A stretch of 43,225 nt of DNA. It comes from Planctomycetota bacterium (lineage in GTDB: Bacteria; Planctomycetota; Phycisphaerae; UBA1845). The stretch covers positions 1-43,225 of the forward strand of contig JAJRWX010000029.1 in the NCBI GenBank assembly GCA_024276605.1, in the 5' to 3' direction. Shown piece after piece: positions 28,965-33,869 of the stretch. The number at the start of each line of letters is the position of its first letter. The stretch's first letter is position 1. The position numbers were made by a program, and so were the translations under genes. The notes beneath the pieces were generated by a model. It saw nothing but the letters and a program-made list of their open reading frames with translations, ran no database searches and was not told the origin of the DNA.

Positions 28965-31406
28965 TTATTGGATCGGAAACAACGAACTAAACATGGCCTG
29001 CGAACGGTTGCGCCAACTGGACCAGCCGGTGCCGTCGTGTAGTTCCCCGCCGCTGGGTTTGAATCCTCTTTCACGCAAGAGCTTGACGAAGTCGCGATTG
29101 GTTTGGCCAAGATCCCAGGCTTCGTCGGGGTTGCGCAAGTCGTACTTACCCCACTCTAGAAAAAAGTGTAGCGGTTGTTCTTTTTCCGTCTTGATGAGTG
29201 GCATCAGTTGATTTTTCATGCTACCGAACATAAAGGCTGATTCCGTACCGATCTTGCCGATCAACTCGGGATTCGCAAATCCACAAAACACGGCATTAAA
29301 ACCTGCAAAACCCGAACCAATGTTCGCGCGTGCTTCACGCGATGAGATTGTGCGAAAGTTCGCATCGATGTAAGGTATCAACTCGGTAGCCATCATTTCA
29401 GCGAATTTATTTACCCCAGTTCGACCGGTAGGCTTCATGAATACGGCGATCAAGGGTCTGACGCTTTTTCCGATCAAGTTGTCAAGAGCGCGAGGTAAGT
29501 CACCATGTGTAATCGCCTTGTCACCATCGTGAATGTAAGCGACTGGATAACGGCTGCTACTACTGTCATACCCGGCGGGCAGGTATACATCGAAGGCGAG
29601 TTTGCTCTCTAGTACTTTGCTGTCCAGTTCTCGACTATCGAGGCGACCCTGCTTGGATGCATCGGGCGTAGCAAGAAACGTTGGCGCTCGCCATTTGGGC
29701 ATAGCCATCCACGACATGTCCAACGCCGGACCGCGAAAATTCATTTCCATCTCTCGACCGTAAACTAGGGACGTCGTCTTGCGCGGATTATTGGGGTCGA
29801 CAATATGATCCTCGTAGTCACGAATGAACATATAGTTGACACGGGCATCTGCTTCGAGGATGGCTGATCGATAAAAAAGGTCCGTGCCGGTAATGCGCGT
29901 CATCGCCCCTTCCTGACGAGCGCCAAAGATGTCACTACCGATAGCCAAGTCTGATCCCGGCCCTCGGTATAGAAAGTGAACGCGCGTATCCCCTTCGATT
30001 AGGGGGAATTCGCTTATTGAGGACATAAATTGATCGACGATAGCCTTTTTGTTTTTCGCGGTAGCGATATCTTTCAGGAAAGAAGAAAACCTACCGGAAC
30101 CTGTACCACCAGTATCAGCGATATGTGATGTAGAATGTGAGGATGATTGGTAGATATTTACCCTGGCTAATTCTCCCAGGCTACGCACGAAAATACTACC
30201 ATCGGCGAAACTCGGATTGGCCCAGATCAAGTCGTCGAAAACAGCTAGCTGGGCGCGCTGCTCGTATCCGTTGGGCGTCGCTTTTACGATGTGCAGACGT
30301 CCGGTTTTTTTCGTACCAATGACTAGATGGCCATCTACCAGGATCAGAAAACCATCACCCGGCTGTCGCGATCGCCACACGGCTTCCCCTGTGTTTGCAT
30401 CGACGCAGGTCAAAAAACGACTGCTAAATGCATAGATATGACCGTCGTGGTATACGGGAACGTTGTAGCTATTTCGTATGGATTTCGATTCCCATGCAAG
30501 CTTAGCCTGGAAATGTTCAGCCGATCCGTCTAACGCATACACGCATGAAGATTGATCTTTGTTAGTCAGAAAAAGACGATCCTCACCGACCGGCACGGCG
30601 GTCAGGCTACCCGCACCTATAGCTCCCGTCCCTTGGTGCTCGAACTGCCAGGCGACTTCTCCGGTTTGGGGTGAAAATGCGGTCAACTTCTTTTTGCCAG
30701 CCGTTAGGATTTGTGTAACCCCGTTTCGGTTATATGCGACTGGTGACTGGTAATCGACTTTGTCTTCGCCGGATTGCCAGAGCAGTTTCCCCGTCTTGGC
30801 ATCGAAGCCAACAGCGACCGCTCCTTTCGCACCGCCAGACACGATCAAAATGCCATCACGCAACATGGGTGACGTCGAAAAACCATAATGAGGTTTAGGT
30901 GCTTCGTGATCTTTCACCAAGTCGACCGACCAGGCCAACGACCCATTCTTGAGGTTCAATGCGAATAGCCGTCCGTGTGCGCCCAGACCATACACCTGTT
31001 CGTCACCGATCACCGGTGTGGCAATCGGACCCGTATGTGAGCCGTCATGGCCAACGTAAGTATCCTCGAATGGGAATCGCCATCGTTGCTTGCCTGTTGC
31101 GACATCGTACGCTGCTAACACGTCCGACTTGCCATCGGAGAACATCGTAACCGCAACGCCCTGAGCCACCGCGACACCTGAGTAGCCGCTACCAATCGAG
31201 ACCTTCCACTCGATCTTTAGCCCCAAGTCGTTGGATGTTGAAAATACTGAACCAACTCGCGCAATCCCGTCGCCTCTTGGGCCTCTAAATCCCGGCCAAT
31301 CCGTGCGTTCACCTGAAGACCCAGCCAATACAACGGAAGGCATCGAGCCGGTTAGGATGATAGTCATAAGTGACAGGAACTTGTTTGCATGTCTTTGTAG
31401 ATTCAT
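28965..31406 (-). CDS. Secreted PQQ-type beta-propeller fused to an esterase-D-like domain
   Basis: The product is 813 aa from the ATG at 31406 (AAGG 8 bases upstream; another ATG two codons earlier is too close to it). A signal peptide runs ~1-29. WPGFRGPRGDG marks the start of a PQQ-like propeller (~35-430) with repeats such as AYDVATGKQRWRFPF and GFDAKTGKLLWQS. The second half (~470-813) resembles enterochelin esterase/esterase-D: VYLPAGYD, YPVAYIHDG, and a C-terminal ELHDGTGWSSWR block holding the expected His. The nucleophile elbow, normally G-x-S-x-G-G, reads GSGFAG here (~697-702), so the catalytic Ser appears to be Gly and the domain may be inactive. It lies 64 bp after the selenoprotein gene on the same strand. 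Confidence 0.85.
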   Translation of the reverse strand: MNLQRHANKFLSLMTIILTGSMPSVVLAGSSGERTDWPGFRGPRGDGIARVGSVFSTSNDLGLKIEWKVSIGSGYSGVAVAQGVAVTMFSDGKSDVLAAYDVATGKQRWRFPFEDTYVGHDGSHTGPIATPVIGDEQVYGLGAHGRLFALNLKNGSLAWSVDLVKDHEAPKPHYGFSTSPMLRDGILIVSGGAKGAVAVGFDAKTGKLLWQSGEDKVDYQSPVAYNRNGVTQILTAGKKKLTAFSPQTGEVAWQFEHQGTGAIGAGSLTAVPVGEDRLFLTNKDQSSCVYALDGSAEHFQAKLAWESKSIRNSYNVPVYHDGHIYAFSSRFLTCVDANTGEAVWRSRQPGDGFLILVDGHLVIGTKKTGRLHIVKATPNGYEQRAQLAVFDDLIWANPSFADGSIFVRSLGELARVNIYQSSSHSTSHIADTGGTGSGRFSSFLKDIATAKNKKAIVDQFMSSISEFPLIEGDTRVHFLYRGPGSDLAIGSDIFGARQEGAMTRITGTDLFYRSAILEADARVNYMFIRDYEDHIVDPNNPRKTTSLVYGREMEMNFRGPALDMSWMAMPKWRAPTFLATPDASKQGRLDSRELDSKVLESKLAFDVYLPAGYDSSSSRYPVAYIHDGDKAITHGDLPRALDNLIGKSVRPLIAVFMKPTGRTGVNKFAEMMATELIPYIDANFRTISSREARANIGSGFAGFNAVFCGFANPELIGKIGTESAFMFGSMKNQLMPLIKTEKEQPLHFFLEWGKYDLRNPDEAWDLGQTNRDFVKLLRERGFKPSGGELHDGTGWSSWRNRSQAMFSSLFPIQ

Positions 31407-31470
31407 TTGCATTACCTTGGCCCCAAAGTAGATCCACCGGGCAACCTAGGCCCCCTTTATACCCTCTTGT

Positions 31471-32496
31471 TCAATGCTTACTATCTGCGCGCAGTTCGGA
31501 AAGTAGCGCCTGGAATCGTTTATCTTGACGGAGGTTATTAAAATCTTCGTCTTTGGCTAGGTGATCGGCGTCTCGATAACCAGCCTTGATAGCTTTGCCT
31601 AGCCAAAGGATGGCGTTATCTGTGTCGCCAATCAGGCTGTATACACATGCGATGTTGTATTGCATACCTGAATCATGTTGATCATATTTATGGATACGAA
31701 GGCCAATGTCGAGTGCTCTGGTGTAGTCCTTAGCGCTATAAGCGCTGGAGAAATCGCTCTGCAATTCGCCCATGTCCACATCGTCGCCGCTCGGCAAGAC
31801 AAGCTTGGGTTCACGTCCTGTTTTTTTGAATTCGATAAGCCAGTCATCTACTTTTTTTAATGCGGGTTTGAAGCCCCAAGGTCCACGTTTGGAAGCAACC
31901 GCCAATTGACCATCCCGTCGTACAAGAAAGACTTTGTCAGGCCAGGCACGGTATTGTTTTTCGACGGTGTTGTTCATGTCATCAACAAGGCACGGAATGG
32001 TAAGCTTTTTGTCTTTGCGAAGACGGCTGGCCACTTTGCATCGTTCACCGAAATTCTTATGTTCTCGAATACCCAACTCGGAGGCATAAGGTACGGGGAA
32101 TTTGTCATCCATCGCATGAGCTTCACTAATATACACCAACCGAAAATTGACTTTTTCTTTATAGGCTCGATACATACGCTCCATTTCGCCAACCTGACGA
32201 AGGAAAGGTGGTCACGTATAGCTTCCGAAAAACAGTACCGTAGGTTTGTTTTTAATCAGCCCGGCCAGCGATTCTTTTTTTGTTTTATCGTCGAAAGTTG
32301 TAAGCACGAACAATGGCGCCTTATCGCCGACACGAGGCGCTTTAGGCCTGGTGGCGGTAGGGGTTGTAGCATTGTCAGCATGTGCTACAGCGGCACTTTG
32401 TGCATTGGTTGAGGCAACAGGTTTTTGAGATTGGCTAACGCACGACACTGATAAAATCGATACCATCAAGCAGATAATCCGGGCCAATCGTTTCAT
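31471..32496 (-). CDS. Deiodinase/thioredoxin-like selenoprotein with TPR tail (in-frame TGA = Sec95)
   Basis: One gene of 341 residues if TGA at 32214-32212 is read as selenocysteine. Start ATG 32496 has GGAG 8 bases upstream. A signal or lipoprotein leader ends near SVSC (Cys19). The thioredoxin-like domain begins PRVGDKAPLFVLTTFDD and reaches KPTVLFFGSYT, then the TGA, then PPFLRQVGEMERMYRAYKEK in the same frame. In iodothyronine deiodinases and bacterial relatives the active site is F-G-S-x-T-(U or C)-P-[PS]-F, so TGA is exactly at the redox residue. A SECIS-like hairpin follows. The domain continues with FRLVYISEAHAMDD and VFLVRRDGQLA, then a TPR-like C-terminus (~245-335). It is probably an extracytoplasmic redox or dehalogenating enzyme. 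Alternative: a pseudogene with a nonsense mutation. Confidence 0.8.
32185..32201 (-). promoter_or_regulatory. Bacterial SECIS-like hairpin after in-frame TGA
   Basis: On the - strand, 10 bases after the TGA, TTCGTC pairs with GGCGAA (six pairs, one G-U) around the loop AGGTT. The loop begins 16 nt after the TGA and has G as second base, which fits the known bacterial SECIS rules (loop 16-37 nt downstream, G in the first two positions) and resembles the AGGUCU loop of E. coli fdhF. Outer bases TTCC/GGAG can extend the stem past a 2-nt bulge. Confidence 0.65.
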
Positions 32497-32640
32497 TATG
32501 TTTTCTCCTAGCGTAGGGCGGCGCAGCTCGAACCCAATTGGGTTGACATCGTCGCAACTGGTTTTTGCTCGGCCCGTCAGCCTGCCATTGTGACACAACC
32601 TTGCACATATTTCAAGGTGAACCCGAAGGATGATATGCAA

Positions 32641-32842
32641 TCGGGTGCAAGACAGTTTAAGCGGGCTTGAGTTGGGTGGCATGGACAAGCGTCGCGTTGA
32701 AGGGGTCGGATGATAAATGCGTTGGGCGACGCTTGCCCGTGCTTTTCCTCGGTTGCGCCTGCACGGGCAAACGCCGCGCGTAGCATCCATTGGGCATTCG
32801 ACAACCCGATTCTGCGGCGTTTGTCCATGCCACCCACCCGCC
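32641..32842. repeat. MITE-like palindromic repeat, family 1, copy B
   Basis: Second copy of the repeat at 551-756, same orientation. Terminal arms TGGGTGGCATGGACAA (32673-32688) and its inverse (ending 32836) are intact, as is the internal GCTTGCCCGTGC/GCACGGGCAA pair. Small internal differences (e.g. a few bases lost after the GTCGCGTTGA block) separate the copies. It lies ~145 bp upstream of the selenoprotein start. Confidence 0.8.
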
Positions 32843-32949
32843 AATTTTGTCTTGCCCCCTATGCAACAAGGGCCACAACACTTCTGTTGGGATGGTTATG
32901 TCGAGTCAGAGTCGGAGTCAGAGCCGCACGGCGCTAGCCTGCGGGCCAC

Positions 32950-33255
32950 CTATGTAGCTGTTGTGGGTGTAGCGAAAAGTCTTTCCCATGTGTAAATACC
33001 GGTATCGTGGCCATCGGTAAAAGTAAATTTGACGGCATAATGGCCAACTAACTGCATATCGGAGATGTTGATGTCGTGGGGAATGTTGTCTGGGTCGAGT
33101 ATTCGTTCACCCGTCATCTCATCCACACAACCTGCACACCCACAGGCACATCGAAGCGCATGAATAGGGTATTGTCGTATGTCCTCTGATGACCAGGATA
33201 CTTCCAGGATCGCCTCGGATCGTTTAAGTTTAATGTCCGTCGGAGCAGCGTGCAT
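32950..33255 (-). CDS. DUF971 domain protein (GBBH-like N-terminal domain)
   Basis: The product is 101 aa. DUF971 is a small domain also found at the N-terminus of gamma-butyrobetaine hydroxylase-like enzymes and in proteins linked to iron-sulfur metabolism; its exact function is unsettled. It has PTDIKLKR near the start, then LRCACGCAGCVDEMTGER (~34-51) with the cysteine cluster and CVDE-TG signature, and finally FTDGHDTGIYTWERL, the domain end. ATG 33255 has GGAACC ~8 bases upstream and a TATAAT (33273-33268) so close that the mRNA leader would be only a few bases. Divergent from the rhodanese gene, 38 bp apart. Confidence 0.8.
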   Translation of the reverse strand: MHAAPTDIKLKRSEAILEVSWSSEDIRQYPIHALRCACGCAGCVDEMTGERILDPDNIPHDINISDMQLVGHYAVKFTFTDGHDTGIYTWERLFATPTTAT

Positions 33256-33293
33256 ACGATTGGTTCCATTATATAAACAAGGAAGGATACTCA

Positions 33294-33869
33294 ATGATGA
33301 ATAGGAAGCAAATAGAACTGGGTATGTGGTTGGTGGTTTTGTCATGTGGTGTGATGACCAATGCCGGTTGCGAAAAGAGCGGACAGTCGGAAACTAAGCA
33401 AGCTGAGCCGGCTACTCAACCCAAGCCCGTAGGGAACATGACTGTACAACAGGTCAATGATTTGATGACCGGGAAGAATGAATACGTGTTTCTTGACGTG
33501 CGCACGGTGGAGGAATTTGAAGCTGGGCATCCGGCGGGTACATTGAATATTCCAGTGTTAATCAAAGATGCAAGTACAGGCAAGAAAATAAAAAATGAAA
33601 AATTTCTTGATGTTGTCATCGCTAATATTCCCAAGTTCGCAAAGGTTATCGTCGGTTGCCGATCCGGCAGACGATCTACCATGGCCGCGAATATGATGCA
33701 CGCGGTCGGATATCAACATGTGGACAATATGTTAGGTGGATTCAGTGGACAGTTTGACAGTGAAGGTAAAGTCATTCATCCAGGGTGGCAATCAAAGGGG
33801 TATCCGACGGAAACAGGTCTGGGGGGTAATCGTAGTTATGAAGTGCTAAAAAATAAAGCCGGTAGTTAG
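33294..33869 (+). CDS. Rhodanese-domain (probable lipo)protein
   Basis: The product is 191 aa. A hydrophobic leader ends TNAGC (Cys26), a likely though imperfect lipobox, so the domain would be periplasmic or membrane-anchored. The rhodanese domain (~48-165) has VFLDVRTVEEFEAGHPAGTL and the active-site loop VGCRSGRRS with Cys122, so sulfur transfer or persulfide handling is possible. The SD AAGGAAGGA lies 7 bases before ATG. It is divergent from the DUF971 gene; a weak hairpin (TTCCTG/CAGGAA, 33875-33899) follows the stop and could end this gene. Confidence 0.85.
   Translation: MMNRKQIELGMWLVVLSCGVMTNAGCEKSGQSETKQAEPATQPKPVGNMTVQQVNDLMTGKNEYVFLDVRTVEEFEAGHPAGTLNIPVLIKDASTGKKIKNEKFLDVVIANIPKFAKVIVGCRSGRRSTMAANMMHAVGYQHVDNMLGGFSGQFDSEGKVIHPGWQSKGYPTETGLGGNRSYEVLKNKAGS

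Follow-up and report, generated by a model that had tools for sequence, protein, structure and literature searches.

Organization of the locus

The window, i.e. the whole stretch of 43,225 nucleotides that was analysed, carries on its minus strand (32496→31471) a gene for a 341-residue protein in which a TGA codon lies in frame at position 95. The host of this gene is a marine planctomycete. The following features were assigned to the gene and its surroundings, with the basis of each assignment in brackets:

31471..32496, minus strand: deiodinase-like selenoprotein gene (reading frame; Pfam PF00837, E 2.9e-25; fold Z 22.9 to Dio3)
32505..32509, minus strand: Shine-Dalgarno-like AGGAG, 8 nt ahead of the start codon (sequence)
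32422..32496, minus strand: putative export signal with the lipobox-like LSVSC, Cys19 (sequence)
32212..32214, minus strand: UGA codon 95, selenocysteine (U 89 / C 11 among 100 homologues)
32185..32201, minus strand: bSECIS hairpin, 7-bp stem with a GGT loop or, equivalently, 6-bp stem with the loop AGGTT (covariation in 26 homologues)
31816..32334, minus strand: thioredoxin-fold deiodinase core, about residues 55-227 (sequence matches and predicted structure)
31474..31776, minus strand: C-terminal TPR tail, residues 241-341, TPR end-of-group domain (NCBIfam NF047558, E 2.2e-20)
28965..31412, minus strand: downstream neighbour with a BamB-like propeller and an esterase domain, after a 58-nt gap (profile scores)

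The frame is open upstream of codon 95 (TGA, 32214-32212) from the ATG at 32496, and beyond it until the terminal TGA at 31471-31473. The sequence at the break reads GSYT-TGA-PPF, and nine codons (PPFLRQVGE) lie between the TGA and the next ATG at 32184. Such a pattern, with protein-like sequence on both sides of TGA95, is far beyond chance. The coordinates, the GSYT-TGA-PPF motif, the nine-codon gap and the position of the hairpin had been given in a previous sequence-only reading and were found to be correct when the sequence was re-read. A scan for promoters and terminators around the gene yielded sites no more numerous than in shuffled sequences, and a search for plasmid or phage copies of the gene found none.

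Decoding of codon 95

In an alignment of 100 Planctomycetota homologues, the column of codon 95 held Sec (TGA) in 89 and Cys in 11 sequences and no other residue; a smaller set (n = 74, from 392 Planctomycetota genomes) comprised 64 sequences with U and 10 with C. Within the host's own taxonomic family the TGA was present in all 34 matches. A sequencing error at 32212-32214 was excluded by the presence of the same TGA in two further genomes of the genus and in dozens of more distant ones. Comparison with the two congeneric genomes revealed purifying selection both before TGA95 (dN 0.15-0.19, dS >1) and after it (dN 0.06-0.07, dS >1), which together with the conserved TGA also rules out a pseudogene.

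An ordinary stop at this position would leave two short proteins or a pseudogene. The ATG nine codons further on would suit such a split, as would the relatives with the Cys form, since their existence indicates that a non-Sec protein of the same deiodinase-like fold is viable. However, the split would cut the catalytic loop, and with the TGA conserved across genera and families, selection acting on both sides, a compensated hairpin and complete Sec machinery (see below), an ordinary stop is extremely improbable. Decoding of TGA95 as a different amino acid, by genome-wide recoding or suppression of UGA, is likewise hardly conceivable: the gene's own terminator is TGA, the open selA and selB frames contain no TGA sense codons, and the sole alternative residue at column 95 is Cys, not Trp. 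In-frame TGA codons lacking a SECIS, which such recoding would scatter over the genome, were absent as far as seen.

The hairpin behind TGA95 comprises a 6-bp stem (TTCGTC/GGCGAA), or 7 bp if an A-U pair closes the loop. The stem begins 10 nt and the loop AGGTT 16 nt past the TGA; the hairpin thus lies just behind the UGA with a G within the first two loop bases, as in a bSECIS. Covariation was examined in 26 relatives chosen without regard to the hairpin. Standard pairs occupied 92.9% of the pair cells, and pairing fell below 48% when the partner strand was slid by one to three bases. All seven stem pairs showed two-sided compensatory changes, a result equalled by none of 500 shuffles, and the covariation score was 0.469 vs 0.161 +/- 0.026 in shuffles (0/500). 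A stem of at least 5 bp in one of three registers was present in 49 of 64 Sec homologues vs 6.8 expected from synonymous recoding (maximum 14), a count that is somewhat optimistic since the registers were picked from the same data. Folding energy gave a weaker picture. By energy alone the hairpin of this gene reached a z of -0.88 vs shuffles and a p of about 0.07 vs synonymous recoding; as the energy of the single hairpin is unremarkable, it becomes convincing only through comparison across homologues. Energy-based codon resampling gave a mean z of -1.19 for Sec and -0.47 for Cys homologues, a modest signal that is explained by the differing register between subfamilies; the stem count over the three registers was what proved decisive. 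A search of Rfam with the hairpin returned no match. With seven pairs covarying on both sides, the hairpin is a genuine bSECIS, as the sequence-only reading had proposed.

The same reading had proposed that the rest of the genome be searched for the Sec machinery, and all four components were found: tRNA-Sec (64.8 bits, anticodon TCA), selA (568.8 bits), selB (309.9 bits; 352.3 bits with its neighbours) and selD (367.5 bits), the three protein genes scoring over their curated cut-offs. The selD gene (G000:C110 14656-15579) itself encodes a selenoprotein, with Sec at the catalytic site (SCAGU). Given a column restricted to U and C, the Sec machinery and the covarying hairpin, UGA95 is almost certainly read as selenocysteine. 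Automatic annotation that is blind to Sec would truncate genes of this kind at the TGA.

Deiodinase-like matches (E <= 1e-20) occurred in 92 of the 392 Planctomycetota genomes sampled. selA was present in 76 of 83 genomes with the Sec form vs three of eight with the Cys form only (p = 8e-4), and in 166 of 300 genomes without a deiodinase-like match (p = 9e-11, same 392-genome sample); these p-values are optimistic because related genomes are not independent. Seven genomes with the Sec form had no detected selA, several of them being incomplete assemblies and two being rated 90-92% complete. In three genomes that keep selA (G162, G201 and G307) the deiodinase-like gene occurs solely in the Cys form, perhaps as a result of recent Sec-to-Cys changes.

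Fold, active site and export

Animal iodothyronine deiodinases remove iodine from thyroid hormone. The protein matched the Pfam family T4_deiodinase (PF00837) with 89.4 bits against a gathering cut-off of 27, and the same profile matched all 55 members of alignment A1. Its best sequence matches in the PDB were mouse Dio2 (3e-15) and Dio3 (2.1e-14). The predicted structure (pLDDT 89.5) was likewise closest to mouse Dio3 (Z 22.9 over 179 residues, rmsd 2.8) and Dio2 (Z 22.2), the next best fold scoring 17.6. The predicted fold is that of a deiodinase core, and the family membership proposed from the motif is upheld by sequence and predicted fold alike.

Alignment with Dio3 mapped Ser167, Thr169, Sec170, Tyr197 and Glu200 to S92, T94, U95, Y122 and E125, and His202, His219, Arg225 and Arg275 to H127, H146, R152 and R204, while Glu259 is replaced by Asp187. 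All seven residues of the Ser167/Thr169/Tyr197/Glu200/His202/His219/Arg225 network therefore have equivalents in the selenoprotein; the roles of the active-site residues in Dio3 have been described (PMC7506546, PMC12025243), His202 being proposed to bind the phenol hydroxyl. Y122, H127, R152, D172 and P206 were invariant in 100/100 homologues and E125 was found in 99. Column 146 holds His in this protein and Pro in most of the family. The animal loop motif AHxxDGW is absent, the sequence here being AHAMDDKF; 41 of the 100 homologues have Trp at the column in question, and the position of Dio3 Trp207 is Phe or Lys-Phe in the host's genus. Deiodinase-like proteins are thus common in Planctomycetota, overwhelmingly in the Sec form, and retain the catalytic network of the animal deiodinases.

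An extracytoplasmic location had been suggested before and agrees with the N-terminal export signal, in which Cys19 of the lipobox-like LSVSC is a probable lipoprotein anchor. Signal peptides of lipobox type or of the ordinary kind, as judged by eye, were seen in most examined members of the clade described below. The C-terminal tail had also been read as TPR, in line with its match to NF047558; it is all-helical in the predicted model and was covered by full-length matches in six further genomes. Taken jointly, that the gene encodes a selenoprotein, with a deiodinase fold, that is exported, is put at a probability of about 0.9.

Relation to known proteins and a clade with a shifted cysteine

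The sequence-only reading had suggested that the protein and its neighbour could be a new module. The family as such is not new; bacterial deiodinase-like selenoproteins were already reported in 2005 from the Sargasso Sea (PMC1088965). According to a 2026 review they are still without a function, and their motif is given as UxxC (PMC13188914). A literature search found no report on deiodinase-like proteins in Planctomycetota. Like the known bacterial proteins, the present one has Sec at the deiodinase active site, a bacterial SECIS directly after the UGA, Cys-containing homologues and a thioredoxin fold. It departs from the UxxC motif of the review, the sequence being UPPF here with Phe at +3 in 100/100 homologues, and its clade stands apart by C153 for C159, by His146 and by the TPR tail that several members have.

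With Dio2 (9h48) and Dio3 (4tr3) the protein shares the GSxTUPPF motif, the fold across the whole core, the seven network residues and Arg275. In contrast to them it is exported and has a TPR tail and a bacterial SECIS; two residues before Sec it has Tyr and no Cys, Glu259 is changed to Asp, and Trp207 is lost. The C-terminal domain of the NCBIfam 'deiodinase family protein' NF038285 (deiodinase_rel) was matched with E 1.5e-37, but at 129.9 bits the score lies under the family cut-off of 250 and the domain arrangement differs. Peroxiredoxins and ResA/CcmG oxidoreductases have the thioredoxin fold and a nucleophile in the same place; unlike them, the protein lacks CxxC and has the deiodinase loop and active-site network.

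A second cysteine occupied column 159 in 83 of the 100 homologues. In a 12-member clade that includes this gene (SH-aLRT 99, trait columns excluded from the tree), column 159 is Leu or Met and a Cys stands at 153 instead, a residue found in only one of 88 homologues outside the clade. C153 and C159 are nearly mutually exclusive (12 vs 82 sequences, both in one). Ten of the 12 members have His at 146, matching Dio3 His219; a TPR tail is present in several, others having a different C-terminal extension or none. From these sequence comparisons, what is new here is the clade with C153 for C159, a gained His146 (10/12) and a TPR tail in several members.

Columns 146, 153 and 159 of Dio2 are His, Cys and Leu. 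A sister relation of the clade to the animal deiodinases was not supported, as Dio2 and Dio3 were placed outside the clade in a tree with a long animal branch and only two animal sequences; His146 and Cys153 therefore look convergent. How selenium is reset in Dio2 and Dio3 is still debated, a question about deiodinases for which the naturally exchanged second cysteine offers a ready-made experiment.

The same genome contains a paralogue, a second deiodinase-like selenoprotein of the C159 type that is 45% identical (G000:C16, 2374-3033). It lies in divergent orientation to the adjoining selB (141-2237).

Proposed mechanism

On the computational evidence, UGA95 is decoded as selenocysteine by means of the adjoining hairpin and the genome's own SelA, SelB, SelD and tRNA-Sec. 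The product is a selenoenzyme of PF00837 that has a thioredoxin fold and a helical TPR tail and is exported, probably with a lipid anchor. In the proposed mechanism, the selenolate of Sec95 would attack a substrate held by Ser92, Thr94, Tyr122, Glu125, His127, His146 and Arg152, which could be an aryl halide, as for the animal deiodinases, or a peroxide or disulfide, as for peroxiredoxins. The oxidised selenium might then be resolved by Cys153 or Cys169 in place of the family's usual Cys159, a step for which the odds are about even, the part given to C153 being read from the sequence alone. An envelope thiol-reductant would reset the enzyme, and the TPR tail would probably dock a partner. Most likely, the protein is a cell-envelope selenoenzyme with chemistry of the deiodinase/peroxiredoxin type, its selenolate being reset through a second Cys.

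Dehalogenation is possible by analogy with the animal enzymes. A redox chemistry that involves no dehalogenation would fit the fold just as well, because peroxiredoxin and ResA-type folds (AhpE, Bcp, ResA) score Z 15-17. The reading as a purely redox enzyme of the envelope, either a thiol peroxidase or a thiol-disulfide reductase in a deiodinase fold, might just as well be right as wrong. AhpC-TSA matched all 55 and Redoxin 48 of the 55 members of A1, and a redox role was also suggested in the 2005 paper (PMC1088965); against it, the deiodinase-specific Tyr197, Glu200, His202, Arg225 and Gly276-Pro277 (Dio3 numbering) are invariant or nearly so, and both deiodinases lie about 5 Z units above every peroxiredoxin.

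The same retained network speaks for an envelope reductive dehalogenase that would apply deiodinase-type chemistry to marine halogenated phenols or tyrosines, with His127 at the place of the proposed phenol-hydroxyl binder and His146 and Arg152 corresponding to His219 and Arg225. This proposal is tentative, given that thyroid hormone is not expected in bacteria, that Trp207 is lost in the host's genus and that no halogen-related gene was identified among the neighbours. A more specific version, in which the whole clade would be an extracytoplasmic dehalogenase of marine halophenols with a substrate/proton network of Dio3 type rebuilt through His146, a resolving Cys moved from 159 to 153 in parallel to the animal deiodinases, and TPR docking, is unlikely. 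Both dehalogenation and peroxide or disulfide reduction fit the envelope selenoenzyme proposed here, and the kept deiodinase network makes a direct test between the two possible.

Neighbourhood and further observations

The downstream neighbour had been taken for a PQQ-esterase fusion, but scored as BamB-like propeller repeats with an esterase domain. It is probably cotranscribed with the selenoprotein gene. The pairing behind the idea of a new module was seen only within the genus, and an operon with the propeller-esterase gene that is conserved more widely was therefore rejected.

Just upstream of the selenoprotein gene lies a MITE-like element of about 190 bp (32660-32850) with terminal inverted repeats at 32673-32695 and 32814-32836. 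Another copy was found at 575-756, and the genome has about 40 copies of 83-100% identity. Further along, a GBBH-like_N (PF06155) protein (32950-33345, minus strand) and a rhodanese lipoprotein-like gene (33294-33869, plus strand) are encoded by divergent open frames that share about 50 bases; genome G559 retains the two neighbours.

In genome G647 (locus L130, from 6967), the reading frame of a deiodinase-TPR protein continues over a long extension and reaches a DUF3179 domain, a domain for which selenoproteins have already been catalogued (PMC13188914). This domain carries a second in-frame TGA (VGWUPLAN), and the deiodinase-TPR-DUF3179 protein is possibly a double selenoprotein.
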